A stretch of 64,000 nt of DNA, taken from an uncultured Pseudomonadota bacterium (GTDB lineage Bacteria; Myxococcota_A; UBA796; GCA-2862545). The notes beneath the pieces are model-generated. The model made no database searches, was not told the DNA's origin, and was given only the letters and a program-made list of their open reading frames with translations. The stretch is taken from NCBI GenBank assembly GCA_903861005.1, contig CAIOSP010000017.1:1-64000 (forward strand), read 5' to 3'. This document shows positions 18,583 to 58,756 of this stretch, in pieces; position 1 is the stretch's first letter; each line of letters begins with the position of its first letter. The translations under genes were made by a program, and so were the position numbers.

Positions 18583-18679
18583 AGAAAACCTCGGACTGCA
18601 CCCCATCGTCGGTTGGACGCGAGGTTTCAATCCGTAGAAAGCCGCAATTGCCGATGCTGTTCGAAAGTGTTGCACCCTC

Positions 18680-39532: not shown

Positions 39533-41290
39533 ATGTCGGAAGATCGCACCCAGCTCACCGTCCGCGCCGCGGTCGCAGGCATGCTGCTCGGCGGCGTGAT
39601 GAGCCTGTCCAACCTGTACGTCGCGCTCAAGACGGGCTGGACCTTTGGCGTGTCCATCACGGCGGGTATCCTGGCCTTCGCCATCTTCGCGGCGCTCCAC
39701 AAGGTGGGCGCGTCCAAGAAGCCGTTCGGCATCTTGGAGAACAACGCCATGCAGTCGGTCGCCAGCGCGGCCGGGTACATGACGGGCGGCGGTACGGTCG
39801 CGGCCATCCCGGCGCTGATGATGATCACCGGCGAGCCGATGGTGTGGACCACGATGATGCCCTGGATCGCGTCGATCGCGGCCTTGGGCGTGGTGATGGC
39901 CATCCCCATGAAGCAGCAGATGATCGACGTGGAGGGGCTGCGCTTCCCGTCGGGCATCGCCGCGGCGGAGACGCTGCGCGCGCTGCACGGCGACGCGGAC
40001 TCGGGCGGCCAGGAGAAGGCGCGCTTCTTGGGCGTGAGCGCCTTCATCGGCGCGTTCGTCGCGTTCTTCCGCGACGCCAAGGCGGCGTGGATCCCCTACA
40101 ACTTCCTGGAGAAGGTCACGCTCCCGGGCCTCACCTTGGGTGGGCGCCGCATCTGGGAGTACACCATCTCGTTTGAGACCTCGCTGCTGCTGGTGGGCGG
40201 CGGCGCGATCATGGGCTGGCGGGCCGCCTGGAGCCTGTTGCTCGGCGCCGGCATCAACTACTTGATCCTCGTGCCCCGGATGTACGAGCTCGGCGCGATC
40301 GATCCCAAGCTCGGCTACAAGAACATCGTCGCGTGGAGCGTGTGGTTCGGCTCCACCACCATCCTGACCAGCGGGCTGCTGTCGTTCGCCTTTCAGTGGC
40401 GCACGGTGATGCGGGCGATGCAGTCGGTGAGCGCCGCCATGAAGGTGGACGCGGTCGACGACGGTCAGGTGCCCATGCGCTGGTTCTTCATCGGCATGGC
40501 GATCTTCGCGCCGATCGTGATCTTCCTGGAGTGGCTGTTCTTCGGCATCGCGCCGTGGCTCGGCGTGATCAGCGTCGTGCTCGGCTTCTTCATCGCGATC
40601 GTCGCCTGCCGCGCCACCGGCGAGACCGACACCACGCCCACCGGCGCGCTCGGCAAGATCACGCAGATCACGTTCGGTGCGCTCGATCCGGGCAACACCA
40701 CCACCAACCTGATGACCGCCCACGTCACCGGCGGCGCCGGCCTGCACGCCGCCGACCTGCTGACGGATCTGAAGAGCGGCTACATCCTGGGCGCCGACCC
40801 CAAGCAGCAGTTCTGGGCGCAGTTTCTGGGCGTGCTCGCGGGCTCCGTGTTCGTCGTGCCCGCGTACCGTTTGCTGATCCCCACCGCGGATCTGATCGGC
40901 ACCGACAAGTGGCCCGCGCCGGGGGCGCAGACCTGGAAGGGCGTCGCCCTGCTGCTCGCGAACGGCCTGTCGAGCCTGCACTACACGGCGCAGATCTCGA
41001 TCGTCGTGGGCGCCGTCGTCGGCGTGGCGCTGGTGCTGCTGGACCGCTTCCTGCCTCGCTTGCGCCACCTCATCCCGTCCGCGATGGGCTTTGGCCTAGC
41101 CTTCACGCTGCCGGTCTACAACACGCTCGCCATGTTCCTGGGCGCGTCGATCGCGATGATCCTGGAGCGCACGCGTCCCGCGCTCGCCGAGCGCACCGTG
41201 GTGCCGGTGTCGTCCGGCTTCATCGCGGGCGAGAGCCTGATGGGCATCGCGGTCGCGATCGCCGTGGTGTCCGGCCTGCTCCATGGCTGA
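39533..41290 (+). CDS. OPT-family oligopeptide transporter
   Basis: 585 residues from the ATG at 39533, preceded by GGGGG; an in-frame GTG at 39494 adds 13 residues. The protein is almost entirely transmembrane helices. Family signatures: LTVRAAVAGMLLGGVMSLSN with LYVALKTGWTFG, LENNAMQSVASAAGYM, DVEGLRFPSGIAAAETLRAL and YILGADPKQQFWAQFLGVLA. OPT proteins are proton-coupled inner-membrane importers of peptides or metal chelates; the substrate is unknown. The stop overlaps the next gene by 8 bp, suggesting cotranscription with the beta-lactamase-like lipoprotein. Confidence 0.93.
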   Translation: MSEDRTQLTVRAAVAGMLLGGVMSLSNLYVALKTGWTFGVSITAGILAFAIFAALHKVGASKKPFGILENNAMQSVASAAGYMTGGGTVAAIPALMMITGEPMVWTTMMPWIASIAALGVVMAIPMKQQMIDVEGLRFPSGIAAAETLRALHGDADSGGQEKARFLGVSAFIGAFVAFFRDAKAAWIPYNFLEKVTLPGLTLGGRRIWEYTISFETSLLLVGGGAIMGWRAAWSLLLGAGINYLILVPRMYELGAIDPKLGYKNIVAWSVWFGSTTILTSGLLSFAFQWRTVMRAMQSVSAAMKVDAVDDGQVPMRWFFIGMAIFAPIVIFLEWLFFGIAPWLGVISVVLGFFIAIVACRATGETDTTPTGALGKITQITFGALDPGNTTTNLMTAHVTGGAGLHAADLLTDLKSGYILGADPKQQFWAQFLGVLAGSVFVVPAYRLLIPTADLIGTDKWPAPGAQTWKGVALLLANGLSSLHYTAQISIVVGAVVGVALVLLDRFLPRLRHLIPSAMGFGLAFTLPVYNTLAMFLGASIAMILERTRPALAERTVVPVSSGFIAGESLMGIAVAIAVVSGLLHG

Positions 41291-42407
41291 TCGCGCGGTT
41301 CTCCTCGCGGCGCTCTGCGCGCTCTGCGGCTGCGAGGCCGCGCCGGTCACCACGCTCGACCTGATGGGCGCGGTGGAGAAGCGCGCCGCGCAGACCGACG
41401 GGTTCGGCGGCGTGTCGCTCGGCGTGCACGCGTCGGCCGAGGACGCCTGGTGGTTCCAAGGTGCCGCGGGCCACGCCTGGGTCGGCGGGCCCGAGATGTC
41501 CGCCGACGACACGTTCGAGATCGCCAGCATCACCAAGACCTTCACCGCGGTCGCGACCCTGCGGCTGGTGGAGCAGGGGAGGCTCTCGCTCGACGACACC
41601 CTCGGCGAGCGCCTGCCCGCCTACGCGGACGGGCTCCTGGTGATCGACGGCCACGACTACGGCCCCGAGATCACCGTCCAGCAGCTGCTCCACCAGGACT
41701 CGGGCCTGCCGGACTACTGGGCGGATCCGCCGTTCGTGACGCGCGGCACCAACGCGTTCCTCAAGGCCTTCAACGCGGACACGGAGCGCGTGTGGACGCC
41801 CAATGAGCTGATCGCCGCTGCCGCCAAGCTGGATCCGATCGGCGCGCCCGGCGAGGTCTGGCACTACTCGGACACCAACTACGTGCTGCTCGGACTGCTC
41901 CTGGAGGCGGTCGAGAAGAAGCCGTACGACGCCGTGATCCGCGAGCAGCTCTTGGACCCGCTGGCCCTGGGCGACACATGGCTGACCTACCACGAGCAGC
42001 CGACGTCGGACGCGACCGAGTCCCACCGGTTCGAGGGCACCGACGACCTGTTTCGCGTGCCGCGTCAGGGCGCCGACTGGGCGGGCGGCGGACTGGTCAG
42101 CTCGCAGCGCGACCTGGTGACGTTCATCGAGGCCGTCGCGCGCGGCGACGTGTTCGACGACCCGGACATGCGGTTCACGCTCGTCGACCTGCAGCCCACC
42201 GACGAGGCGGACATCACCTACGGCCTCGGCGTGTTCGGCGTCGACCTGGGCGCGGACGGCTACCTCTGGGGCCACGACGGGTACGGCGGCTCCTTCGTCT
42301 ACACCTGGCCGCAGCGCGGCCTGACCATGGTCGGCACGGTCAATCAGACCGACGTGGACTGGTGGCCGCTGGCGCTGGCGACGATTCGGGCGGCGGACGC
42401 GCTGTAG
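41283..42407 (+). CDS. Class C beta-lactamase-like serine hydrolase lipoprotein
   Basis: 374 residues. Lipobox ALCGC (Cys17). The penicillin-recognising fold is shown by Ser82-Ile-Thr-Lys85 (SxxK), Tyr195-Ser-Asp in HYSDTNYVLLG at the YxN position, and WGHDGYGGSF with the HxG third motif. LHQDSGLPDY and GLVSSQRDLVTF are typical of esterase/DD-peptidase members of the family rather than proven beta-lactamases. Anchored in the envelope. Overlaps the OPT gene by 8 bp, so peptide hydrolysis and peptide uptake could be linked (inference). Confidence 0.88.
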   Translation: MADRAVLLAALCALCGCEAAPVTTLDLMGAVEKRAAQTDGFGGVSLGVHASAEDAWWFQGAAGHAWVGGPEMSADDTFEIASITKTFTAVATLRLVEQGRLSLDDTLGERLPAYADGLLVIDGHDYGPEITVQQLLHQDSGLPDYWADPPFVTRGTNAFLKAFNADTERVWTPNELIAAAAKLDPIGAPGEVWHYSDTNYVLLGLLLEAVEKKPYDAVIREQLLDPLALGDTWLTYHEQPTSDATESHRFEGTDDLFRVPRQGADWAGGGLVSSQRDLVTFIEAVARGDVFDDPDMRFTLVDLQPTDEADITYGLGVFGVDLGADGYLWGHDGYGGSFVYTWPQRGLTMVGTVNQTDVDWWPLALATIRAADAL

Positions 42408-42629: not shown

Positions 42630-45600
42630 TTGCGCCGTTCCCTCCCGGTCGGTCCGAGGTGTGTCATTCGACTCCTGGCTTCACTCGGTGCTGTCGTGGT
42701 TCTGTTGGCGAGCCCTGCGACGGCCCGCGCGGCCAACTGCACAGTGGACTACGGCGTGACGACCCCGTTGACGTGCGACTTCTCCTACGTGGGCCGCGCG
42801 GACAACATCAACCACCGTTCAAGCTGGTGCGGGAACCCGTCGGACACCGGCGCGGATGCCATCTTCCAGTTCACCCCGCCCAATGGCACCTCGGTCTCGG
42901 TCATTGGCGGGCTGCTCGAGGATTACACCACCTCCATCTTCACCGACATCGACCTGTTCGTGACCGAGGACGACTGCGGCGTGGCGGCGCCCTGCGTGGC
43001 GTTCGACAACTCCTCCAGGAACCAGTCCAAGCTCAACTTTGTGGCGAATGGTTCGACGTACTACGCCGCGATCGACGACTTCGGCGCGGCGGACGGGCGG
43101 TACCGCTGGGGTATCGAGGTGAGCTGTGGGGGCGCCTGCGCGCCCACCCACGTCGGCCAGACCTTGACATGCTCCAGCGACCTGTCGTCTTCGACGACGA
43201 GCAGCGTGAACTACCTGAGCTACTACGCCTGCGGAACGCCGTACCCGAGCGTTCGTCAGGACGGTCCCGAGTCGATCTACGCGTTCAGCCCGCAGCGTAC
43301 CGGGTCGGTCACGTTCAAGCTGTCCGGCATGACCAGCGACCACGACCTCTACGTGTTGGAGGATGCGTGCGCCGCGGCCGCTTGCATCTCCAGCGCGAAC
43401 GACCTCTCGGTCAACACCGATCAGGTGACCTTCAGCGCCGTGAAGGGTCACGTCTACTACATCGTGGTCGAGGCCTACGGCGGAGTGGGCTCGTACAACC
43501 TCTCGTTCGCCGACAACACCGGCGGCTGCGTCGAGGACTGCAATGACCGCGTCGACAACGACCTCGACACCTTCGTGGACTGCGCGGATCCGGACTGCGC
43601 GGGCGACCCCGTCTGCAACCAGTGCGACGTGGATCACGACGGCTTCCAGGCGGTGTCCTGCGGCGGGCACGACTGCAACGACAACGTGGCCAACTTCGGC
43701 GACACCGACAGCGATCTGATCCCGAATGACTGCGACAACTGCAAGACGGTCGCGAACCTCTCCCAGTCCGACGTAGACGCCGACGGCTTCGGCGACGCGT
43801 GCGACATCTGCGGCGGCGGCAACGACGCGCTCGACGGCGATCACGACACGCGCCCTGACGCGTGCGACATCTGCCCAGGCTCCAACGACTTCGTCGACGC
43901 CGACGTGGACGGCATCCCGGACGGCTGCGACATCTGCCCCGGGTTCAACGACGCCGCCGACGCCGACCACGACAGCGTGCCCGACGGCTGCGACAAGTGC
44001 GCGAACGCGCCCGACCTGCTCGACGGCGACCTCGACGGCGTGCCGAACGCCTGCGACATCTGCCCCGGCTTCAGCGACCTCGTCGACTCGGACCTGGACC
44101 TCGTGCCCAACGGCTGCGACACCTGCCAGGGCTTCGACAACCGCCTCGACGCGGACCATGACCTGGTGCCGAACGGCTGCGACGTGTGCGTTGGCTTCGA
44201 CGATCGCCTCGACGCGGACGCCGACACGCGCCCCGACGGCTGCGACATCTGCGCGGGCTTTGACGATCGGCAGGACGCGGACGCCGACGGCGTGCCGAAC
44301 GGCTGCGACTCCTGCGTGGGCGCCACCACCGACTCCGACCTCGACACCGTGCCGGACGCCTGCGACATCTGCCCGGGCTCGAACGACTTGGTCGACACCG
44401 ACGTGGACGGCGTGCCGAACGGCTGCGACGTCTGCCCCGGGTCGCCCGACGGCGCCGACGCCGACGCGGACACCACGCCGGACGGCTGCGACATCTGCGC
44501 CGGCTACGACGATCGCCTCGACCCGGATCTGGACGGCGTGCCCGACGGCTGCGACGTGTGCCCTGGCGCCGACGACAACGTCGACACCGACGGCGACGGC
44601 GTGGCGGACGGCTGCGACGTGTGCGCGGACGGCGATGACGCGCTTGACGGCGACCTGGACACCGTGCCCGACGCGTGCGACGCCTGCGACCCGGGCGATG
44701 ACTTCCTGGACGCAGACGCGGACGCTGTGCCGGACGCCTGCGACGTGTGCGAAGGCTTCTCCGACCTGGTCGACGCCGACCTCGACACCGTTCCGAACGG
44801 CTGCGACGTGTGCCCCGGCGCCGACGACGCGCTCGACGCGGACGCCGATGGCGTGCCCGACGGCTGCGACGTCTGCGTGGGCTTCGACGACCTGTCCGAC
44901 GCCGACGCGGACACCGTGCCCGACGGCTGCGACATCTGTCCGAACGCCGACGACCTGCTCGACGCGGACGCGGACGGATTTCCGAACGGCTGCGATGTCT
45001 GTCCGGGCTCCGATGATCTGGCCGACGTCGATCTCGACGGCGTGCCGGACGGCTGCGACATCTGCGGCGGCTTCGACGACAAGATCGACGGCGACAGCGA
45101 CGGCGTGCCGGACGGCTGCGACATCTGCCTCGCGGGCGACGACTTCACGGACTCGGACGCGGACCACGTGCCCGACGCATGCGATGTCTGCGCCGGCCAC
45201 GATGACGCGGTGGACGCGGACGGCGATGGCGTGCCCAACGGCTGCGACTCTTGCGTCGGCTCGCTCGACGACGCGGATCAGGACGGCGTGCCCGACGCTT
45301 GCGACGTCTGCCCCGGCGCGGACGACACGCTCGACGCGGACCAGGACGGCGTCCCCGATGCCTGCGACGTCTGCCCCGGGGCGGACGACGCGCTCGACGC
45401 GGACCAGGACGCCGTGCCGGATGCCTGCGACGTCTGCCCTGGCGCCGACGACGCGATCGACTCTGACGTCGACGGCGTACCTGACGCCTGCGACGCCTGT
45501 CGCATCGGCAACGACGCGCTCGACGCCGACCAGGACGGCGTGCCTGACGCCTGCGACGTGTGCGCGGACGCGAACGACGCCCTCGACGCGGACGCCGACG

Positions 45601-47165
45601 GCGTGCCCAACGGCTGCGACATCTGCTCCGCGGGCGATGACACGGTGGACGCCGACGGCGACCATGTCCCTGACGCCTGCGACATCTGCGCGTCCGGCGA
45701 CGACGCGCTCGACGCCGACGGCGACACCGTGCCCGACGCGTGCGACGTGTGCCCGGGCGGCTCGGACCTGACGGACGCCGACCACGACAGCGTGCTCGAC
45801 GGCTGCGACGTCTGCCCTGGCGCCAACGACCTCGCCGACGGCGACGCCGACGGCGTGGCCGATGGCTGCGACACCTGCCCGACCGCGGCCAACCCCACGC
45901 AGCTCGACAGCGACGGCGACGGTAACGGCGACGTCTGCGACCCGTGCCCGCAGATCGCGAACGAGCCCGACGCGGACGGCGACGGCTTCCCGTCCTGCAA
46001 GGACTGCGACGACGGCGACGCGACGCTCAACGATTCAGACGTGGACCAGGACGGCACCACGTCCTGCGGCGGCGACTGCAATGACCTCGTGGACAGCATC
46101 CTCGCAGGCAGCGCTGAGACACCTGACGGCATCGATCAGGACTGCGACGGCACGGTCGACGAGGGCACCATCTGGTACGACGACGACGGCGACGGCTACA
46201 CTGAGGCCGGCGGCGACTGCGACGACACCACCGTCACCCTGGCGCCCAACCGCGTCGAGGTGTGCGACGGCGTCGACCAGGACTGCGACGGCGTGATCGA
46301 CGAGGGTACCACCTGCTTCGACGACGACGGCGACGGCGCCTGCGAGGGCCCGAGCTGCCATGACGGCTCGCGTCCCGGCGACTGCGACGACAGCAACGCC
46401 ACCATCACGCCCACCGCGACGGAGGTCCCGCTCAACGAGATCGACGACAACTGCGACGGCGAGGTCGACTTTGGCACTGTGGATCCGGACGCCGACGGCT
46501 ACCTCGAAGGCGGCGGCGACTGCGCGCCCAACAACGGCGACGTGCACCCCGGCGCGATCGAGCTGGTCAACGGCGTGGACGACGACTGCGACGGCCTGAT
46601 CGACGAGGGCACCACCGCGTACGACGACGACGGCGACGGCACGTCCGAGGACCAGGGCGACTGCGACGACGGCGACGCCGCCGTGCATGACGGCGCGCTC
46701 GAGGTGGCCAACGGCGTGGACGACGACTGCGACGGCCTGGTCGACGAGGGCACCGAGGTCTACGACGACGACGGGGACGGCCGCTCCGAGGCGGCGGGGG
46801 ACTGCGACGACACCAACCCGTCGATCCACCCCGTGGCGGACGACATCGCCAACGGCGTGGACGACGACTGCGACGGTCGCGTCGACGAGGACATCGTCGA
46901 CCTGGACGGCGACGGCTACGCCACCGCCACGGGCGACTGCGACGACAGCAACGGGTGGGTCCACCCGAACGGCCGCGAGTTCTGCGACGCGATCGACAAC
47001 AACTGCGACGGCGTGGTCGACGAAGACTGCGTGGAGGACGTGGTGACGCCCACCAAGCCCACCAAGCCCACCGACACCTGCGGCTGTGACCAGTCTGGCT
47101 CGCCGGTCAGCCTGCTGTGGGGCCTGCCGCTCGGGCTGCTCGCGCTCCGCCGGAGGCGCGCATGA
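42630..47165 (+). CDS. Giant surface rod protein, cassette copy A (33 repeats)
   Basis: About 1511 residues. No ATG fits; the TTG at 42630 aligns exactly with the ATG of copy B (same AGG-NTG-CGC context, eight codons to the shared AGG-TGT), so it was chosen. Order: signal peptide ending TARA-AN; two PPC-like beta domains (~35-300; [30 protein letters not shown]); Cys-rich spacer; rod of 33 repeats of CDxCPGxDDxxDADxDGVPDG; seven MopE units; CGC, hydrophobic helix, LALRRRRA tail (MYXO-CTERM-like). Predicted to be exported, calcium- or metal-stabilised and anchored to the cell surface by a myxosortase. The codons of the terminal arginines contain GGAGG that serves the next gene (ATGA overlap). 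Paralogue of the gene at 48625. Confidence 0.85.
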   Translation: MRRSLPVGPRCVIRLLASLGAVVVLLASPATARAANCTVDYGVTTPLTCDFSYVGRADNINHRSSWCGNPSDTGADAIFQFTPPNGTSVSVIGGLLEDYTTSIFTDIDLFVTEDDCGVAAPCVAFDNSSRNQSKLNFVANGSTYYAAIDDFGAADGRYRWGIEVSCGGACAPTHVGQTLTCSSDLSSSTTSSVNYLSYYACGTPYPSVRQDGPESIYAFSPQRTGSVTFKLSGMTSDHDLYVLEDACAAAACISSANDLSVNTDQVTFSAVKGHVYYIVVEAYGGVGSYNLSFADNTGGCVEDCNDRVDNDLDTFVDCADPDCAGDPVCNQCDVDHDGFQAVSCGGHDCNDNVANFGDTDSDLIPNDCDNCKTVANLSQSDVDADGFGDACDICGGGNDALDGDHDTRPDACDICPGSNDFVDADVDGIPDGCDICPGFNDAADADHDSVPDGCDKCANAPDLLDGDLDGVPNACDICPGFSDLVDSDLDLVPNGCDTCQGFDNRLDADHDLVPNGCDVCVGFDDRLDADADTRPDGCDICAGFDDRQDADADGVPNGCDSCVGATTDSDLDTVPDACDICPGSNDLVDTDVDGVPNGCDVCPGSPDGADADADTTPDGCDICAGYDDRLDPDLDGVPDGCDVCPGADDNVDTDGDGVADGCDVCADGDDALDGDLDTVPDACDACDPGDDFLDADADAVPDACDVCEGFSDLVDADLDTVPNGCDVCPGADDALDADADGVPDGCDVCVGFDDLSDADADTVPDGCDICPNADDLLDADADGFPNGCDVCPGSDDLADVDLDGVPDGCDICGGFDDKIDGDSDGVPDGCDICLAGDDFTDSDADHVPDACDVCAGHDDAVDADGDGVPNGCDSCVGSLDDADQDGVPDACDVCPGADDTLDADQDGVPDACDVCPGADDALDADQDAVPDACDVCPGADDAIDSDVDGVPDACDACRIGNDALDADQDGVPDACDVCADANDALDADADGVPNGCDICSAGDDTVDADGDHVPDACDICASGDDALDADGDTVPDACDVCPGGSDLTDADHDSVLDGCDVCPGANDLADGDADGVADGCDTCPTAANPTQLDSDGDGNGDVCDPCPQIANEPDADGDGFPSCKDCDDGDATLNDSDVDQDGTTSCGGDCNDLVDSILAGSAETPDGIDQDCDGTVDEGTIWYDDDGDGYTEAGGDCDDTTVTLAPNRVEVCDGVDQDCDGVIDEGTTCFDDDGDGACEGPSCHDGSRPGDCDDSNATITPTATEVPLNEIDDNCDGEVDFGTVDPDADGYLEGGGDCAPNNGDVHPGAIELVNGVDDDCDGLIDEGTTAYDDDGDGTSEDQGDCDDGDAAVHDGALEVANGVDDDCDGLVDEGTEVYDDDGDGRSEAAGDCDDTNPSIHPVADDIANGVDDDCDGRVDEDIVDLDGDGYATATGDCDDSNGWVHPNGREFCDAIDNNCDGVVDEDCVEDVVTPTKPTKPTDTCGCDQSGSPVSLLWGLPLGLLALRRRRA
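43800..45866 (+). repeat. 63-bp coding repeat array, 33 units (rod A)
   Basis: The rod is 2067 bp: 31 units of 63 bp (21 residues) plus two units of 57 bp (19 residues), which accounts for the length exactly. The short units start at 44304 and 45243 (CDSCVGATT... and CDSCVGSLDD...), splitting the array into blocks of 8, 14 and 9 full units. Units at 45300, 45363 and 45426 are nearly identical in protein and DNA, a sign of recent unit duplication. Each unit has CxxC plus an Asp ladder DxDxDG. Confidence 0.95.
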
Positions 47166-48574
47166 ACCGCCGCATCCTGATCGCGGTCGCGCTGTGCGGC
47201 GCGTGCAACAGCACGGTCCTCTCCTCCGCGGCGGCCGTCGTCGTCCCAGCGCCGCCGCTGCTCGACCTGGGCGTCGTGCTCGTCGGGGAAGAGGTCACGG
47301 GCCACGTCACGCTCGGCGTGAAGAACGGTCCGGCGAGCCTGCTCGACGTGAACCTGCTGCCCACGGAGGGCGACGGCTTCGTCTTCGAGGCCGAGACGCC
47401 CTACGTGATCGACGTGGACGACAACGACGGGTTCGACCTGACCTTCCGCCCGACGGAGGCCGGCTACGCGTCGGCCGTGGTGCAGATCACGACCGATGCC
47501 CGTGATCCGCTCGTGGAGATCGAGGTCCGCTCCCGCGCGGTCGCCGCCGACCTGCTCGCCTCGCCCGCCATCCTCGACCTGGGCGTGGTGCCCACGGGCA
47601 CCACCGGCACCGGCCTGGTGAAGCTGGAAGACCTGGGCGACATCAGCGTGCCCATGTCGGGCGCGTCCTCCACCACGCCCGGCCTGGGCGTGTCCACGGC
47701 GTTCCCGCTCACCGTGCTCGCGCACGGCTCGGTCGACCTGGAGGTGGCGTACACCGCGCCCAACCAGGCGCCGATGCTCGGGCGCGTGTCGCTGCTGGTC
47801 GGCGGCGTCCCGGTGTCGGACGTGGTGATCGTGCGCGCCAACAGCTGCGAGCAGGGCCTGCCCTCCGCCTACGACGTGGACGGCGACGGCGTCACCAGCT
47901 GCGGCGGCGACTGCGACGACGGGGATGCGGCCAAGGGCCCCGCCGGCGTCGAGGTCATCAACGGCGACGACGACGACTGCGACGGCCGCGTCGACAACGG
48001 GACCACCGTGTACGACGACGACGGCGACGGGTTCTGCGAGGGCCCCACGTGCCTGGGCAGCGCGCGTCCGGGCGACTGTCAGGACGCGGATCCGGCGGTG
48101 TCACCTGGCGCCACTGAGGTCCTGGACAACGGCGTCGACGACAACTGCGACGGCATCCTGGATCCGAACGCCATCGACCGTGACGGCGACGGCTTTGGCC
48201 CGTCGGGCGGCGACTGCGACGACACCAACGCCTTGGTTCACCCGGGCGTGGTCGAGGTCCTCAACAGCAAGGACGACGACTGCGACGGGGTGGTGGACGA
48301 CCACACGTCGGTGTTCGACGACGACGGCGACGGCTTCTGCGAGAGCCCGTCGAGCTGCCTGGGCGGCGCGCGGACCGGCGACTGCTCCGACGTGGACGAG
48401 GACCGGTTCCCCGGCGCCACCGAGACGCCCAACTTCGTCGACGACGACTGCGACGGCGAGGTGGACGAGGGGACGACCCGCGGCGACGACGACGGCGACG
48501 GCTACACTGAGGTGGGCGGCGACTGCGACGACGCGGATCCACTGCGCAATCCGGCCCGAGGAAACTGTCCGTAG
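47162..48574 (+). CDS. Lipoprotein with Hydin-like Ig domains and MopE units, cassette copy A
   Basis: 470 residues. ATG overlaps the stop of rod A (ATGA), with GGAGG at 47152-47156 inside the rod gene. Lipobox ALCGAC (Cys15). Residues ~30-240 are two Ig-like domains of the Hydin/choice-of-anchor D type ([52 protein letters not shown]). Then [20 protein letters not shown] and four MopE units ending at GNCP with no C-terminal anchor. Presumably membrane-bound by its lipid and translated in fixed ratio with the rod; the shared MopE modules may let the two proteins associate. Paralogue of the gene at 54234. Confidence 0.85.
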   Translation: MNRRILIAVALCGACNSTVLSSAAAVVVPAPPLLDLGVVLVGEEVTGHVTLGVKNGPASLLDVNLLPTEGDGFVFEAETPYVIDVDDNDGFDLTFRPTEAGYASAVVQITTDARDPLVEIEVRSRAVAADLLASPAILDLGVVPTGTTGTGLVKLEDLGDISVPMSGASSTTPGLGVSTAFPLTVLAHGSVDLEVAYTAPNQAPMLGRVSLLVGGVPVSDVVIVRANSCEQGLPSAYDVDGDGVTSCGGDCDDGDAAKGPAGVEVINGDDDDCDGRVDNGTTVYDDDGDGFCEGPTCLGSARPGDCQDADPAVSPGATEVLDNGVDDNCDGILDPNAIDRDGDGFGPSGGDCDDTNALVHPGVVEVLNSKDDDCDGVVDDHTSVFDDDGDGFCESPSSCLGGARTGDCSDVDEDRFPGATETPNFVDDDCDGEVDEGTTRGDDDGDGYTEVGGDCDDADPLRNPARGNCP

Positions 48575-48624
48575 CGCGCTGAGGTCGCGATCGTTTGCTG
48601 CAATTGGGTGACGATTGGCGTAGG

Positions 48625-51600
48625 ATGCGCGTGGGTCCTCTACGCGCATCGAGGTGTTCCATCCGCACTCTGGCTGCATGCGGCGCGTTCGCGCTGTTCA
48701 TGGCGATCGACGGGTCTGCGTCCGCGGCATCCTGTGTCGTCGACACGGTGATCCCCGACGCGAGCGCCTGTGGTTTTTCGGCCTTCGGCACGACGAACAC
48801 CACCAGCGACGTGACCTTGCTCTGCGGGGCGCTCACCCAGGGCTCGGACGTCACGTTCCAGTTCACGCCGCAGGCGGGTCAGACCGTGACGGTCACGGGC
48901 GGCATCAAGTACCCGGGCGTGACCGGCTTCCAGGCGGTGGACCCCGACCTGCTGATCACCAAGAACGACTGCTCGATCCTGTCCACCTGCACGGCGAGCG
49001 AGCAGAGCTCGGCGCTGGCGGGCTCGGTCAGCTTTGTGTCGGACGGCTCGACCTACTTCGCGACCTTGGACGACGGAAACGGGATCGCCGCCATCTTGGG
49101 TCCCAAGGCCTACCCCTGGGGCATCGAGATCAGCTGCAGCGGCACGTGCGCGCCGTCGCAGGTCACCGCGAACGTCACCTGCTCAAGCGACCTCACCGGC
49201 ACCACGGTCGGTGCGACCAACTTCTTCAACTACTACGCGTGTGGCACCCCCAACGTGGGCGTCGGTCAGACCAACGGCGAGCGCATCTACGCGTTCACGC
49301 CACAGAAGGCGGGCTCGGTCACGTTCAAGCTGTCGGGCCTGACCAAGGACCACGATCTGTACGTGCTCGCGGACACCTGCACCACGGGAACGTGCATCGC
49401 GGGCGCCAACAGCAAGTCCGCCGTCAACACCGAGTCGGTCACCTTCGACGCGCTGCTCGGTCACACCTACTACATCGTGGTCGAGGCCTACGGCGGCGGG
49501 AGCACCTTCTCGCTCTCATTCCAGGACAACACCAGCGGCTGCGCTGAGGACTGCGACGACCTGACGGACAACGACGTCGACGGCGCGATCGACTGCGCGG
49601 ACTCCGACTGCACCGGCGACCCGGCATGTAGCGCCTGCGACGTGGACCACGACGGCTTCCTCGCGGTGTCGTGCGGCGGCCACGACTGCAACGACACGGT
49701 CTTCAACACCGGCGACACCGACGGCGACCTCGTCCCCAACACCTGCGACAACTGCCAGACGGTGGCGAACGTCACGCAGGTGGACGGCGACTCAGACGGC
49801 TACGGCAACGCCTGCGACGTGTGCCCGGGCAGCCCGGACGGGCTCGACGCGGATCACGATCTGGTGCCCGACGGCTGCGACATCTGCAGCCGCGGCCCGG
49901 ACAACGTGGACGCCGACGTCGACACCATCCCCGACGCCTGCGACGTGTGCCGCGGTCACGACGATCGCGTCGACCCAGACGGCGACGGCGTGCCGACCGG
50001 CTGCGATCTGTGCGAGGGCTTCCCCGACAGCGTCGACCCGGACTTCGACACCGTGCCGACCGGCTGCGACATCTGCCTGCGCGGCAACGACTTCCTCGAC
50101 GCGGACTTGGACACCGTCCCCAACGCCTGCGACGTGTGCGCGCGCAACGACGACCGCCTCGACGCGGACGGCGACGGCGTGCCCGACGGCTGCGACCTGT
50201 GCGCGAACTACAACGACGCGCTCGACCTGGACGGCGACGGCGTCCCCAACCGTTGCGACAAGTGCCTTGGCTTCCCGGACTCGGCGGACGCGGATCTGGA
50301 CACGATCCCCGACGGCTGCGACCAGTGCCGCGGCCACGACGATCGCCTGGACGCGGATCTGGACGGCGTGCCCGACGGCTGCGACATCTGCGTGGGCTTC
50401 AATGACAAGGCGGACGCAGACGCGGACGGCGTTCCGAACGGCTGCGACCAGTGCTCGAACTTCAACGACGCGCTCGACGCGGACCACGACGGCGTCCCGA
50501 ACCTCTGCGACATCTGCCCGAACGCCAACGACAAGGCGGACGCGGACGCCGACGGCGTGCCGGACGGCTGCGACGCGTGCATCGGGTTTGACGACAACGT
50601 CGACTCCGATCTGGACGGCACGGCCGACGGCTGTGACCTGTGCCCGACCTTCGACGACCGCCTCGACGCGGACCACGACGGCGTGCCGAACGGCTGCGAC
50701 GAGTGCCCGGGCGCCGACGACAACGCCGACGCGGATCTGGACGGCGTGGCCGATGCCTGCGACGCCTGCCCTGGCGAGGACGATCGACTCGACGCCGACC
50801 TCGACCTGGCGCCGGACGCCTGCGACGTGTGCCCCGGCGGCGACGATCGCCTCGACGCGGACGCGGACACCGTGCCCGACGACTGCGACATCTGCCCTGG
50901 CTTCAACGACCTGCTGGATGGCGACGGCGACGGCGTGCCGAACGGCTGTGACTCCTGCGTGGGCGCGCTCACCGACACCGACCAGGACGGCGTGCCCGAC
51001 GCCTGCGACGTCTGCCCCGGCTTCAGCGACTCGGCGGACGCGGACCACGATGGCGTGCCCGACGGCTGCGACGAGTGCCCCGGCTTCAACGACGCGGCGG
51101 ACGCGGACCACGACACCATCGCGGACGGCTGCGACATCTGCGCGAACGCGGACGATCTGGCCGACGAGGACGGCGACAGCGTGCCCAACGGCTGCGACGT
51201 CTGCGCGGGCTTCGACGACTTCGCGGACATCGACGTGGACACCGTGCCGGACGGCTGCGACGTGTGCGCGGCGGGCTCCGATCTGTCCGACGCCGACGCG
51301 GACACCGTGCCCGACGCCTGCGACATCTGCCCGAACGCGGACGATCTGAGCGACGGCGACGCGGACACCGTGCCCGACGGCTGCGACATCTGCCTGGGCG
51401 CCGACGACTTCCTCGACGCGGACGCCGACGGCGTGCCGGACGGCTGCGACGCGTGCCCTGGGTTTGACGACGGCCTGGACGGTGACTTGGACGGCGTGGC
51501 CGACGGCTGTGACGTCTGTGACCCGGGCGACGACCGCCTGGACGCCGACCGCGACACCGTGCCTGACGCCTGCGACGTGTGCGCGAACGGCGACGACCGC

Positions 51601-54237
51601 CTCGACACCGATCTGGACGGCGTGCCGAACAAGTGCGACACCTGCCCCAACGCCAACGATCTGGCCGACGCGGACCACGACGGCGTGCCCGACGCCTGCG
51701 ACATCTGCCCCGGCTTCGACGACGCGGCGGACACGGACGGGGACGGCGTGCCGAACGGCTGCGACGTGTGCCCCGGCTTCGACGACGCGGCGGACGCGGA
51801 CGGCGACGGCGTGGCCGACGGCTGCGACGCCTGCGAGGGCGCGGACGACAACCTCGACGCGGACGGCGACGGCGTGGCCGACGGCTGCGACGCCTGCGCG
51901 AACGCGAACGACGCGCTCGACGCGGACTTCGATCTGGTGCCCGACGCGTGCGACGTGTGCCCCGGCGGCGACGACGGCGTCGACAGCGACGCCGACATGG
52001 TGCCGGACTTCTGCGACGTCTGTCCCGGTCATGTGGACGCGATCGATCCGGACGGCGACGGCGTGCCGAACGGCTGCGACGTCTGCCCCGGCGCCGACGA
52101 TCACATCGACACGGACCGCGACGGCGTGGCCGACGGGTGCGACGTCTGTCAGGGCTTCGCGGACTCCGTGGACGCGGATCTGGACACGGTCCCGAACGGC
52201 TGCGACGTGTGCCCCGGCAAGGACGACCGCCCGGACGCGGACGGCGACGGCGTGCCGAACGGCTGCGACGTGTGCCCCGGCTCGGACGACGCGCTCGACG
52301 CGGACGGCGACGGCGTGCCTGACGGCTGTGACCAGTGCGTCGGCTTCGACGACAGCCTCGATGGAGACGCGGACGGCGTGCCCAACGACTGCGACGTCTG
52401 CCTGGCGGGCGACGACCACGTCGACACCGACGCGGACCTCACGCCCGACGCCTGCGACGTCTGCCCTGGCTTTGATGACAGCATCGACGCGGACGGCGAC
52501 GGCGTGCCGAACGGCTGCGACGACTGCGTCGGGTCGCTGGATGACTTCGACGCGGACGGCGTGCCGGACGCGTGCGACGTGTGTCAGGGCTACGACGACG
52601 CGATCGACACGGACGGCGACGGTGTGCCCGACGGCTGCGATCTCTGCGATGGCGCGGACGACTCGGCCGACGCGGACGCGGACGGCGCGCCCGACGCGTG
52701 CGATGTGTGCGAGGGCTACGACGACCGCCTCGACGCCGACCTCGATCAGGTGCCCAACGGCTGCGACATCTGCAGCGCGGGTAACGACGGCGTCGACGCC
52801 GACCGCGACGGCGTGCCCGACGCGTGCGACGTCTGCCCGAACGGCTCCGACTCGATCGACTCCGATCGCGACGGCGTGTTCGACGGCTGCGACACCTGCC
52901 CGGGCTTCAACGACCTGGCGGATCGCGACGGCGACCTGGTGGCGGACGGCTGCGACAACTGCGCGTCCGTCGCGAACCCGACCCAGGTCGACCGCGACGG
53001 CGACCTGGTGGGCGACGTGTGCGACGCCTGCCCGCTCATCGCCGACGAGCCCGACGCGGACGGCGACGGCTCGCCGGTGTGCACCGACTGCAACGACGCG
53101 GACCCGCTCCGCAGCGTGACCGACGCCGACGGCGACGGGTTCACGTCGTGCTTTGGCGACTGCGACGATCACGACGCCACGACGCACCCGAACGCGGCTG
53201 AGCTCGCCGACGGCGTGGACCAGGACTGCGACGGCACGGTCGACGAGACCACCGTGCGGTTCGATGACGACGGCGACGGCTACTCGGAGCTCGGCGGCGA
53301 CTGTGACGACGGCAACAGCGGCCTGTCGCCGGCCCGCGTCGAGGTCTGCGACGGCGTGGACCAGGACTGCGACGGCACGATCGACGAGGGCACCGCCTGC
53401 TTCGACGACGACGGCGACGGCAGCTGCGAGGGCCCGACCTGCGCCGACGGCACGCTGCCCGGCGACTGCAACGACACCACCACCGCGGTGTCGCCGCTGC
53501 AGTCTGAGATCCCGAACAACGAGATCGACGACGACTGCGACGGCTCGGTCGACGGCGGCGCCTACGATCCGGACGACGATGGCACGACGGAGGCGGGCGG
53601 CGACTGCGCGCCCACCAACCCGGCGATCCACCCCGGCGCGACCGAGGTCGAGAACAACCTCGACGACGACTGCGACGGCCTGATCGACGAGGGTACGCTC
53701 GCGTACGACGACGACGGCGACGGCGTGTCCGAGGACGACGGCGACTGCAACGACGCGGACGCCTCCATCCACCCCGGCGTGACCGAGACGGTCGACGGCG
53801 TGGACGAGGACTGCGACGGCCTGGTCGACCAGGGCACCAACGTCACCGACGACGACGGCGACGGGCGCTCCGAGGCGGCAGGCGACTGCGACGACACGCT
53901 CGCGTCGGTGCACCCGGGTGCTGAGGATCTGGCGGACGGCGTGGACAACGACTGCGACGGTCGCACCGACGAGGACGTGCTCGACGCGGACGGCGACGGC
54001 TACGCCACCACCACCGGGGACTGCGACGACACCAACGGCTGGGTGCACCCCTCCGGCCAGGAGTTCTGCGACTCGGTCGACAACAACTGCGACGGCGTGG
54101 TCGACGAAGACTGCGCAGGAGACGCACCGACGGTGAAGCCACCGAAGGAATGCGGGTGCGCTGAGCGCGGCGCGCCGACCTCGATGCTCTGGATGGCCCC
54201 CCTCGCGCTCCTCGCGCTCCGTCGGAGGCGCGCATGA
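48625..54237 (+). CDS. Giant surface rod protein, cassette copy B (50 repeats)
   Basis: About 1870 residues from the ATG at 48625, 50 bp after copy A. Same architecture as rod A: signal peptide ending SASA-AS, two PPC-like domains ([30 protein letters not shown]), Cys spacer ending [12 protein letters not shown], rod of 50 repeats, [12 protein letters not shown], seven MopE units and CGC[13 protein letters not shown]. The ends match copy A closely while the rod has 17 more units, so length variation is confined to the rod. The ATG has only a weak ribosome site; GAGGTGT further on (before an ATC codon) is conserved in both copies and leaves the true start open. The stop overlaps the next ATG (ATGA), with GGAGG at 54224-54228. 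Confidence 0.86.
49813..52950 (+). repeat. 63-bp coding repeat array, 50 units (rod B)
   Basis: 3138 bp made of 48 units of 63 bp plus two 57-bp units starting at 50947 and 52516 ([10 protein letters not shown]... and [10 protein letters not shown]...). The full-length blocks are 18, 24 and 6 units. The 19-residue variants lack two residues between the CDxC motif and the Asp ladder, as in rod A. Neighbouring units such as those around 51700-51820 (CPGFDDAAD twice) are near duplicates. Confidence 0.95.
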
Positions 54238-55652
54238 ACCGCCGCAGCTGGATGGCCGTCGTCGCCTTGCTGGGCGCGTGCAACAGCACCGTCCTCACCG
54301 ACATCAAGCCTGAGGTGGTGGCCTCGCCGCCGGTGCTCGACCTGGGCACCATCGTGCTCGGGTCCGAGGCGACCGGCCGAGTGGGGCTGACGGTGCGCAA
54401 TGGCATCGGCAGCGTGCTCGACGTGAACCTGCTCCCCACGCTGGGCGAGGGCTTCGCGTACGACGGCGAGAGCGCGTTCGCGATCGACGCCGACGCCTCC
54501 AACGGGTTCGACCTCACGTTCCGGCCGACGCAGGCCGGCTACGCGTCCGCGCTGGTGCAGATCACCACCGACGGCCGCGTGAAGGTGGTCGAGGTGGCGG
54601 TGCGCGCGCGCGCCGTCGACGCCGACGTGATCGCGACGCCGTCGATCGTCGACCTGGGCGTGGTGCCCGCGGGGAGCACGGCGTCCGACGTGATCCGCCT
54701 GGAGAACCTCGGCGCGCTGGACGTCGACCTGTCGAGCGCGGTCGGCAACGCGCCGGGCCTGGTGGTCGACGCGACCTTCCCGCTGTCGCTCGTGGCGGGC
54801 GGCGACGCCGACCTGTCCATCGCGTACACCGCGCCGAACGACGCGCCGATGCTCGGCAACGTCACGTTCACCACGGGCACCGCGTCGATCACCGACGTGG
54901 TGATCGTGCGCGCGAACAACTGTGAGCAGGGCCTCCCGTCCGCGTACGACGTGGACGAGGACGGCGTGACCAGCTGCGGCGGCGACTGCGACGACGGCGA
55001 CGCGCAGGTCGGTCCGGGCCAGCCCGAGCGCCTCAACGGCGTCGACGACGACTGCGACCGCTTGATCGACGAGGGCACGCGCGCCGACGACGTGGACGGC
55101 GACGGCTACTGCGCCCACCCGACCGCCTGCGCGGGCTCGGCGTCGCCAGGCGACTGCCAGGACGACGACGCGGCGATCTCTCCCGGCGCGGCCGAGGTGG
55201 ACGAGAACGGCATCGACGACAATTGCGACGGCGTGATCGATCTCGGCTCGGTGGACGCCGATCACGACGGCTACGGGCCCACCGGCGGCGACTGCAACGA
55301 CAACGACGCCACGCGTCACCCCGGCGCGCCGGAGCTGGTGAACGGCCTGGACGACGACTGCGACCGCGCGGTGGACGAGGGCACCGTCGTGTCCGACGAC
55401 GATCACGACGGCTACTGCGAAGACCTGTCGCGCTGCGTGGGCGGCGCCACGCCGGGTGACTGCTCGGACGGCGATCCCCGGCGGCATCCCGGCGCCCCGG
55501 AGCTCGCGAACTTCCTGGACGACGACTGCGACCACCTGGTGGACGAGGGCACCGTGAACGGCGACGACGACCACGACGGCTTCACGGAGGCGGGCGGCGA
55601 CTGCAACGACGGCAACGCGAACGTGAACCCCGTTCGTGGCGGCTGCCCGTAG
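54234..55652 (+). CDS. Lipoprotein with Hydin-like Ig domains and MopE units, cassette copy B
   Basis: 472 residues, paralogous to the lipoprotein of copy A over its whole length: MNRR start, lipobox ALLGAC (Cys16), two Ig-like domains ([52 protein letters not shown]), [20 protein letters not shown] and four MopE units ending GGCP. Same ATGA coupling to its rod. Mature N-termini differ after the lipid Cys ([12 protein letters not shown] versus NSTVLSSAAAVV), so the two copies have diverged but are under similar constraint. Five bases after its stop the molybdenum oxidoreductase gene begins. Confidence 0.85.
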
Positions 55653-55657
55653 GGGCC

Positions 55658-57673
55658 GTGTTGGCCGCGCGCACGCAGCCGACCGTCTGCCGCCTCTGCG
55701 AGTCCGCCTGCGGCCTGATCGCCACGGTGGACGACGCGGGCGACGTGACGCTCGCGCCGGACCGCGCGCACCCGGTGTCGGCGGGCTTCGCGTGCCGCAA
55801 GGGGCTCGGCTTTGGTCGGATCCACGCGCACCCGACGCGCCTGCTCCAGCCGCGCCTGCGGGGCGCGTCGGGCGCGCGGGACGTGACTTGGAATGAGGCC
55901 TGGGCGGAGGTCGGCGGACGCCTCCGGGCGCTGCGCGCGGCCCACGGCCCAGACGCGATCGGGATCTACTCGGGCAACGCCGCGGGCCACAGCCTGGGCA
56001 CGGTGCTCGGGCTGGAGGCGTTGCACCGCGGCTTGGGCACCAGGCGGCACTTCTCGTGCCTGACGCTGGACAACAGCGGCATGTTTGTGGTGCTGGACGC
56101 GGTGCTCGGAAACCCGATGCGCTCGTTCCTCGCGGACTACGCGGGGTCGGACCACGTGGTCTTGATCGGCACGGACCCGCTGGTCTCGCAGCCCTCGCAG
56201 GCGCAGTCCAACCCGGACGGCGTGCGGCAGCTGCTCCGCGCGGGCGACCGCCTCACCGTGATCGATCCGCGCGCGTCCGCGACGGCGCGTCGCGCGGCGC
56301 ATCACCTCGCGCCCATCCCCGGCAGCGACGTGCACCTGCTGGCGTGGCTGCTCCACGCGGTGCTGGCGTCGGGTCGGCGCGATCCATGGCTGGACGCGGC
56401 GGACGTGGACGCGGTCGCGCGTGCCGTGGCGCCGTGGGCCTCGCGCGACGCGGTGGTGTTGGCCACGGGCCTGCCGCCCGACGCGCTGGCGGGCCTGCTG
56501 GAGCGCTTGCTCGCGGCGCGGCGCCCGCTGGTGTGGTCGGGCCTGGGCGTGCTCCTGGGGCCGCATGGGACGGTCGGCTACTGGCTGACGCTGGCGCTGC
56601 AGGCGGCGCTGGGCGGTCTGGACGTGGCGGGGGGCTGGGTTCACCAGCCGGGCGCGGTCGACATCCCTTCGCTGGGCCGGCGGATCGGGCTGCGCGGCGC
56701 CGATCCGACGCTGCGCGCGCGCACGGGCCACGCGGCGGTGCTGGGGACGATCGCCGCCGCCACGCTCGCCGACGACATCCTCGCCGGAGACCTGCGCGCG
56801 CTGATCGTGGTCGGAGGCAACCCGCTGCTCTCGCTCCCCGACTCGGACCGCGCGCGGGCGGCGCTGTCCAAGCTCGACCTGCTGGTGTGCGTCGACCTGT
56901 TCGAGAACGACACCGGCAGGCTCGCGCACGCGCTGCTGCCCGCGGCCGACTGGCTGGAGCGCGACGAGGTGGCGGTGCATCTGGCCCACACCCGCGCGCG
57001 CCCGCACCTGGACCGCGTGCGGGCCGTGGTGCCGCGCCGCGGCGACGTCCGCAGCGACTGGGAGATCCTGATCGGGCTGGCGCACGCCGCGGGGCGCCCG
57101 GCCTTTGGGAGCCGCGTGGCCGACGTGGCGGTGCGGGCGGGGTTGGGCCCATCTCACGTGGCGCGGCTCGCGCTCGCGACGGCGGGCGCGCCCGCGGAGA
57201 CGCCGGGCGTGCTGCGTCGGCGCGGGACCGATCGACCGGACGGCCGCGTGCGCTTGGCGGCGCCCGAGCTGATGGACGCGCTCGCGGCGATCGGCGGTCC
57301 ACGCGCGGCGCCGGTCGGCTTCACGCTGGTGACCTCGGTGCGGCCGGTGGAGTCGATGAACACCTGGGACCACTACCGCGTGCGAGACGCGCCGGTCGCT
57401 TCGCTTCATCCCGCGGATCTGGCGGCGCTCGGCGCGGCAGACGGCAGCACGATCCGGCTCTCTCGGCCCGACGGGCCGTCGCTGCGGGTGGCGGTCGCCG
57501 CAGACGACTCGCTGCGGCGCGGGGTCGTCGTGTTGCCGTTCGGCTGGGGAGAGGGCACGGGGCTGTCGGCGCCGGGACCGAACGCCAACGTGCTGGTCGG
57601 CGTGGACGCGCTCGACGCGATCACCGGCCAGCCCGTGTCCAACGGGGCGCGGGTTCAGGTGGAGGCAGGATGA
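55658..57673 (+). CDS. Molybdopterin-dependent oxidoreductase
   Basis: 671 residues from a GTG at 55658 with AGGGG just before it. An N-terminal [4Fe-4S] site is formed by Cys11, Cys14, Cys18 and Cys46 (CRLCESACGL, FACRKG), followed by the molybdopterin-binding core (GIYSGNAAGHSLG, SDHVVLIGTDP, LRALIVVGGNPLLSLPDS) and the C-terminal dinucleotide-binding domain (SMNTWDHYRVRDAPVASLHP, PGPNANVLVG). A DMSO-reductase/formate-dehydrogenase superfamily enzyme; the residue that ligates Mo and the substrate are not evident. No Tat signal, so cytoplasmic. ATGA overlap with the MOSC gene shows an operon with cofactor genes. Confidence 0.92.
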   Translation: MLAARTQPTVCRLCESACGLIATVDDAGDVTLAPDRAHPVSAGFACRKGLGFGRIHAHPTRLLQPRLRGASGARDVTWNEAWAEVGGRLRALRAAHGPDAIGIYSGNAAGHSLGTVLGLEALHRGLGTRRHFSCLTLDNSGMFVVLDAVLGNPMRSFLADYAGSDHVVLIGTDPLVSQPSQAQSNPDGVRQLLRAGDRLTVIDPRASATARRAAHHLAPIPGSDVHLLAWLLHAVLASGRRDPWLDAADVDAVARAVAPWASRDAVVLATGLPPDALAGLLERLLAARRPLVWSGLGVLLGPHGTVGYWLTLALQAALGGLDVAGGWVHQPGAVDIPSLGRRIGLRGADPTLRARTGHAAVLGTIAAATLADDILAGDLRALIVVGGNPLLSLPDSDRARAALSKLDLLVCVDLFENDTGRLAHALLPAADWLERDEVAVHLAHTRARPHLDRVRAVVPRRGDVRSDWEILIGLAHAAGRPAFGSRVADVAVRAGLGPSHVARLALATAGAPAETPGVLRRRGTDRPDGRVRLAAPELMDALAAIGGPRAAPVGFTLVTSVRPVESMNTWDHYRVRDAPVASLHPADLAALGAADGSTIRLSRPDGPSLRVAVAADDSLRRGVVVLPFGWGEGTGLSAPGPNANVLVGVDALDAITGQPVSNGARVQVEAG

Positions 57674-58700: not shown

Positions 58701-58756
58701 ATGGAGCGTGACTGATTTGGGTGGATGCGTCGCGCGGCGCGTGGCACGATGCGGGC

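Follow-up and report, generated by a model that had tools for sequence, protein, structure and literature searches.

What is built by a gene for a long, repetitive exported rod and a gene for a lipoprotein, when the same pair is found twice in a row? The question is raised by a 64,000-nucleotide stretch (hereafter the window) of contig CAIOSP010000017.1, assembly GCA_903861005.1, from an uncultured bacterium of a Myxococcota-like class. An original prediction had described in it a tandemly duplicated surface unit, each copy consisting of a rod with two PPC domains, CDxC repeats, seven MopE units and a MYXO-CTERM-like tail, and of a coupled lipoprotein with two Hydin-like immunoglobulin-like (Ig) domains and four MopE units. 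The cassette is real, although more general than first read and differently bounded, and it belongs to the partner-operon kind of MYXO-CTERM systems. What is conserved at its core is the combination of a two-Ig/MopE lipoprotein with a protein that carries a MopE array and a MYXO-CTERM-type tail; the CDxC rod elaborates on this core. At roughly even odds (about 0.5), the window holds two old tandem copies of a class-specific two-component surface cassette, the products of which would assemble 1:1 at the base of a calcium-stiffened contact rod.

Two tandem copies of a rod–lipoprotein pair

The two pairs follow each other head to tail, with all four window open reading frames (ORFs) on the forward strand. 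Gene positions and domain calls in both copies (Table 1) confirm the duplicated two-gene unit, and the conservation of its two-copy architecture is far beyond chance. At both rod/lipoprotein junctions, the stop codon of the rod and the start codon of the lipoprotein share the four bases ATGA (47162–47165 and 54234–54237) within an identical context, GCGC-ATGA-ACCGCCGC, as expected from the coupling first proposed. The end of lipoprotein 1 and the ATG of rod 2 are separated by 50 bases. The start of rod 1, originally placed at 42630, is only approximate, as no ATG fits; a GTG at about 42648 is taken as the start, with an uncertainty of 42630–42663.

The domain composition was largely borne out. 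The Pfam MopE stretches number seven per rod and four per lipoprotein, the counts first given. Pfam also finds an ASH domain in both lipoproteins and, below threshold, one PPC domain per rod; the second PPC domain of each rod was a reading of the original prediction, with no second Pfam match. Two choice_anch_D stretches are found in each window lipoprotein by NCBIfam, in agreement with the two Hydin-like Ig domains that had been proposed. The AlphaFold model of lipoprotein 2 comprises two high-confidence β-sandwich domains followed by a mostly coiled MopE part, and Foldseek matches these sandwiches to HYDIN/CEP192-type domains. In both lipoproteins, a lipobox cysteine closes the signal peptide (for example, MNRRILIAVALCGAC; judged by eye). 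The CDxC repeat of the rods is strictly periodic, with 36 and 53 copies of 21 residues, respectively. A unit-by-unit register between the MopE blocks of rod and lipoprotein was also sought; it gave a weak diagonal over three units and was not used.

Table 1. Positions in the window of the two rod–lipoprotein pairs and their parts
Feature	Positions	Strand	Description
Rod protein 1	42648..47165 (ORF from 42408)	+	Signal peptide, PPC region, 36 CDxC 21-residue repeats, 7 MopE units, CGC-transmembrane-RRRR tail
PPC domain match, rod 1	43275..43472	+	Pfam 22.0 bits, under cut-off 25.9
CDxC repeat, rod 1	43731..45947	+	TSP3-like, probably calcium-binding (TSP3 similarity measured on rod 2)
Seven-unit MopE block, rod 1	45969..47030	+	Last unit with GDCDDxNGW signature at 46932-46958
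MYXO-CTERM-type tail, rod 1	47079..47159	+	CGC, hydrophobic helix, RRRR; slightly under NCBIfam cut-offs
Lipoprotein 1	47162..48574	+	Signal peptide ending CGAC; two Ig-like (choice_anch_D/ASH) domains; 4 full MopE units and a partial fifth
Rod protein 2	48625..54237 (ATG start)	+	Signal peptide, PPC region, 53 CDxC repeats, 7 MopE units, CGC-transmembrane-RRRR tail
CDxC repeat, rod 2	49744..53034	+	phmmer match to thrombospondin-2/COMP type 3 repeats
Seven-unit MopE block, rod 2	53121..54108	+	GW signature at 54016-54042
MYXO-CTERM-type tail, rod 2	54160..54234	+	Passes TIGR03382
Lipoprotein 2	54234..55652	+	Lipobox LGAC; two Ig-like domains 54318-54884; MopE units 54947-55618

Between the two copies, identity amounts to 50% in the signal and PPC region, 67% in the seven-MopE block with the tail, 58% in the Ig pair and 63% in the MopE part of the lipoprotein, values which indicate that the duplication is old or the cassette fast-evolving. 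The two window rods are mutual nearest relatives, as are the two window lipoproteins; the simplest account is therefore a duplication of the whole pair at once. The cassette is tightly flanked by a β-lactamase-fold gene (41283–42407, +) and a molybdopterin oxidoreductase gene (55658–57673, +). Same-locus orthology between the tandem pair and the cassette of a sister species was rejected, since only the cassette aligns and the flanks do not.

Further copies define the conserved core

The source genome contains other copies, which show how the unit is bounded. In a third pair, on contig C86, the partner rod has neither PPC nor CDxC repeats. A fourth is formed by a lipoprotein (C166) divergent from a protein with PPC and seven MopE units (C60), again with no CDxC, and is split by a contig break; we infer the join across the two contigs from the sister species, where this divergent pair is intact on one contig. 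PPC and CDxC are therefore optional and not defining, and the rod composition that had been taken as the hallmark of the system was not upheld. Two more lipoproteins of the same genome (C54 and C187) lie on separate branches and have no neighbouring rod.

A signature, GDCxDxxGW, is found in the last MopE unit of most rod partner proteins (hereafter GW rods). Searched for at the DNA level, it has exactly four occurrences in the source genome and three in the sister species, every one in a paired rod, and the pairs of these two species are arranged either in tandem or divergently. The MopE repertoire of the source genome comprises at least 150 units. Within the window, it includes a protein of 2034 residues (3145–9249, −) with 25 Pfam MopE stretches and no lipoprotein alongside, and a protein (15886–18675, −) that combines CotH kinase, C-type lectin, lamin-tail (sub-threshold) and MopE domains.

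Linkage, co-divergence and fusion of the partners

The lipoprotein is encoded in 52 of 71 genomes of the class, and in an even sample of 379 genomes of the phylum all 49 matches fall within the class, none outside. A mobile or viral origin was rejected, as no full-length relatives were found in plasmids or viral contigs. After setting aside four lipoproteins at contig edges from 92 distinct domains, 88 could be resolved, and 61 of these are linked to a rod, 41 by adjacency and 20 by fusion in one ORF. Among the 41 unfused cases, the rod is downstream in 21, upstream in 15 and on both sides in three, with one divergent and one convergent arrangement; in L165 and L166 a single lipoprotein stands between two different MopE/MYXO-CTERM rods, one upstream and one downstream. 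Such conservation of adjacency, while gene order was shuffled, would be difficult to account for if the genes were not functionally linked. At the level of whole genomes, a lipoprotein is encoded in 42 of the 45 genomes with a GW rod and in 10 of the 26 without (Fisher p = 9e-7, without phylogenetic correction); the three GW-rod genomes that have none are incomplete metagenome-assembled genomes (MAGs; 77–83%).

The partners also diverge together. Distances between lipoproteins correlate with those between rod blocks (r = 0.454, 62 pairs), and when partners were swapped among paralogs of the same genome the mean r fell to 0.254, with a maximum of 0.434, none of 5000 swaps being as high as the observed value. 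The pairs are inherited as units. Rod and lipoprotein might still be merely co-expressed members of the MopE repertoire, with no physical interaction, their adjacency reflecting shared regulation and co-inheritance: MopE genes are numerous, rods and lipoproteins are each found alone too, and linkage by itself gives co-divergence. This explanation is distinctly improbable given that adjacency was kept through different arrangements and that the 20 fusions include repeated transitions on the tree (nine changes by parsimony, of which well-supported branches demand two or more). Adjacency across genera, co-divergence and fusion together support the rod and the lipoprotein as a real unit.

In all 20 fused ORFs, the cysteine–helix–arginine tail of the rod is followed by a second hydrophobic segment that ends in a lipobox cysteine, at a distance of about 15–37 residues from the arginine cluster. 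The loop has a net charge of +3 or more in every case (in L210 the first segment was misplaced by the script and was read by eye). Of ten fusion tails tested, eight pass TIGR03901 and eight pass TIGR03382. This geometry suits a helical hairpin, with the MYXO-CTERM helix running out-to-in and the lipoprotein signal in-to-out. We tentatively propose, at somewhat below even odds, that the myxosortase signal (Cys–helix–Arg) and the lipoprotein signal (Arg–helix–lipobox) make up one excisable membrane hairpin, on each side of which a different enzyme would cut once, releasing two lipid-anchored partners at a fixed 1:1 ratio; the split tandem form of the window would arrive at this pair through overlapping genes.

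Every named source is a MAG, and a single indel in the ATGA overlap would join the two frames, so the fused ORFs could be thought to be assembly errors. That is very unlikely, as they come from many separate genomes and one four-member fused clade (SH-like approximate likelihood ratio test, SH-aLRT, 99) covers four species, which makes such an error an improbable general explanation. Moreover, one fusion (L063, CANKOI010000022.1) has no ATG, GTG or TTG between the arginine cluster and the lipobox, so that no separate start of the lipoprotein is possible there; in L096 and others, internal initiation could still occur. One locus (L208, G064:C88:25000-44900), whose genome has six or more fused ORFs, carries two of them in direct tandem, a duplication separate from that of the window.

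Rod tails, export and metal-binding character

The rod tails were compared with two MYXO-CTERM models, TIGR03901 (cut-off 20) and TIGR03382 (cut-off 15.85). The tail of rod 2 passes the latter (17.7), and that of rod 1 is just under both (17.4 and 14.1, respectively), so the MYXO-CTERM-like character first proposed holds for the two tails with the strict reservation that rod 1 reaches neither cut-off. The tails of the C86 and C60 rods are over TIGR03382, the latter over TIGR03901 too, and about 30 or more tails over cut-off are found in the source genome. In the window, a CARDB-domain protein (58721–60631, +) also ends in a tail over cut-off (60542–60619). MYXO-CTERM proteins are cleaved by MrtX, with lipidation proposed on the signature cysteine, and reach the surface through type II secretion (PMC11980579). 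GspD, the component of type II secretion that was looked at, is present in the source genome (512 bits, cut-off 351).

The CDxC rod is a TSP3-like variant that is probably calcium-binding, judging by its repeats: phmmer matches that of rod 2 to thrombospondin-2 (E 5e-9) and COMP (E 1.5e-8), and Foldseek gives a weak structural match between a model of the rod C-terminus and 3fby and 5wtl (COMP, OmpA TSP3). The metal-stabilised fibre of the original prediction is thus supported as far as the metal-binding type of the rod is concerned, through the likeness to the type 3 repeats of thrombospondin-2 and COMP. A lipoprotein holding the base of the fibre is possible and not required, because the C-terminal cysteine of the rod is itself lipidated in the myxosortase model (PMC11980579).

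The Pfam name of the shared units, Cu-binding_MopE, points to another metal. The window proteins share with MopE of Methylococcus capsulatus the MopE motif itself; PF11617 matches throughout, and a short stretch of rod 2 matches the solved MopE structure (2vov, E 3.5e-5). A surface system scavenging copper or another transition metal is nonetheless scarcely credible. The copper site of MopE is formed by two histidines and a kynurenine derived from Trp130 (PMC3423442), ligands that are unmatched in the window proteins: in both copies, the MopE parts of the lipoproteins have no tryptophan and few histidines, and those of the rods hold two to three tryptophans. The DxDxDG motifs are of the calcium type, aspartate makes up 23–24% of the rod MopE parts, and purified MopE is stabilised by calcium (PMC3423442). 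A copper function taken from the Pfam name was therefore rejected, on residue content and on the known MopE site.

A proposed two-component surface complex

In the arrangement that we favour, the first component is a Sec-exported rod, rich in cysteine and aspartate, whose TSP3-like repeats probably bind Ca2+ and which has seven MopE units towards the C-terminus and a MYXO-CTERM-type tail. A myxosortase-like protease would cut this tail, so that after type II secretion the rod would be held at the outer membrane by a lipid anchor. The second is a dedicated lipoprotein, in which two HYDIN-type Ig domains are followed by a separate MopE block, and the four-base ATGA overlap would keep its synthesis in step with that of the rod. 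Both lipidated proteins would then stand side by side in a 1:1 complex at the base of the calcium-stiffened rod and may serve cell–cell or surface contact, like TraA with TraB. In the fused relatives, one precursor would contain the hairpin (cysteine, transmembrane helix, arginine loop, transmembrane helix, lipobox cysteine), and cuts by myxosortase and LspA would yield the same two lipoproteins.

Several observations weigh against this arrangement. Pairing is not obligate from either side: 27 of the 88 lipoproteins are solo, with no adjacent rod, and 56 of the 99 places with a GW-signature rod across the class have no lipoprotein within 6 kb (43 have one), for which reason obligate co-occurrence as seen from the rod was rejected. 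The original prediction had named a search of Myxococcota for co-occurrence as its check, and homologues of the rod mostly without the lipoprotein as a result that would speak against it. The outcome is divided, with the rod linkage of the lipoproteins and the 42 of 45 GW-rod genomes on one side and these 56 rods, in part the adverse result, on the other. Linkage alone makes adjacent genes co-diverge, and so the co-divergence of the partners is no proof of contact. The search for MrtX (NF040593) found one MrtX-like CPBP protease, whose 133 bits fall short of the curated cut-off of 180, and four unrelated control genomes also match below it. Finally, the AlphaFold models are of single components (predicted template modelling scores 0.47 and 0.30) and are uninformative on a complex; their Ig domains are usable, and they contain no interface.

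The unpaired rods are unevenly distributed, as a lipoprotein is found within 6 kb of all seven GW rods in the source genus and of 6 of 44 elsewhere in the family; in other genera, one lipoprotein may serve several rods. Five of the solo Ig–MopE lipoproteins (L026, L085, L088, L089 and L095) lie near a tyrosyl-tRNA synthetase-like gene (by eye, from ORF ends). The lipoprotein might also act as an assembly or export factor at the periplasmic face, helping to fold or lipidate the rod or to pass it to type II secretion or myxosortase. Its two Ig/PapD-like HYDIN-type domains resemble periplasmic chaperone folds, and genomes with few lipoprotein matches and four to six rods (G007, G013, G014, G017 and G018) fit one helper with many clients. 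We regard this as unlikely, given the long MopE block of the lipoprotein, of the same kind as that of the rod and unusual in a chaperone, and given that one lipoprotein per rod in the source genus and partner-specific co-divergence across the class would be superfluous for a general helper.

Comparison with known systems

The closest precedents of the cassette are TraA/TraB and MXAN_5598. In Myxococcus xanthus, the TraA and TraB ORFs overlap by four bases (PMC3325183), TraB has TSP3 repeats, and the TraA/TraB complex was modelled as 1:1 (PMC12045341). Both systems thus have an exported, cysteine-rich MYXO-CTERM stalk and a partner gene overlapping by four bases; they differ in the partner, which is a β-barrel/OmpA protein in TraB and a choice_anch_D/ASH and MopE lipoprotein in the cassette. 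The Pfam scan found no PA14/variable domain in the rods, and TIGR04201 cysteine repeats were not found in the source genome, in a search where no positive control gave a match. The cassette therefore fails the TraAB domain tests and works like TraAB at most; there is no evidence that it mediates membrane exchange, unlike TraA/TraB, which act in outer membrane exchange.

MXAN_5598 has an internal MYXO-CTERM motif, explained as a fusion of adhesin and partner genes (PMC11980579). The fused ORFs likewise carry the motif in the middle of the protein. Behind it, MXAN_5598, a single protein, has a β-barrel/OmpA part, whereas the 20 fused ORFs have a second lipoprotein and so two back-to-back lipid anchors. 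MtsC (NF047638), which NCBIfam names and describes as a TSP3-type MYXO-CTERM protein of cell–cell cohesion, is matched by rod 2 (1.7e-11), although the 43.7 bits lie far short of the curated cut-off of 350; rod 1 is not listed. Our literature search returned nothing relevant on MtsC, on choice-of-anchor D with MYXO-CTERM, or on polyproteins with a lipobox or internal signal peptide. With the type 3 repeats of thrombospondin and COMP and the TSP3 repeats of OmpA (PDB 1yo8, 3fby and 5wtl), the CDxC rods share a sequence match and differ in their strict 21-residue period and 36–53 copies, Pfam TSP_3 scoring rod 2 at 22.4 bits against a cut-off of 25.

Next to TraAB, the cassette would add another kind of partner system for MYXO-CTERM proteins, in a class whose biology is undescribed. 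Its natural fusions predict a specific partner for a probable calcium-rod family that is otherwise annotated only as "metal-binding motif", and they make two ideas testable, the processing of an internal signal by myxosortase and the making of two lipid-anchored surface proteins at a fixed ratio.

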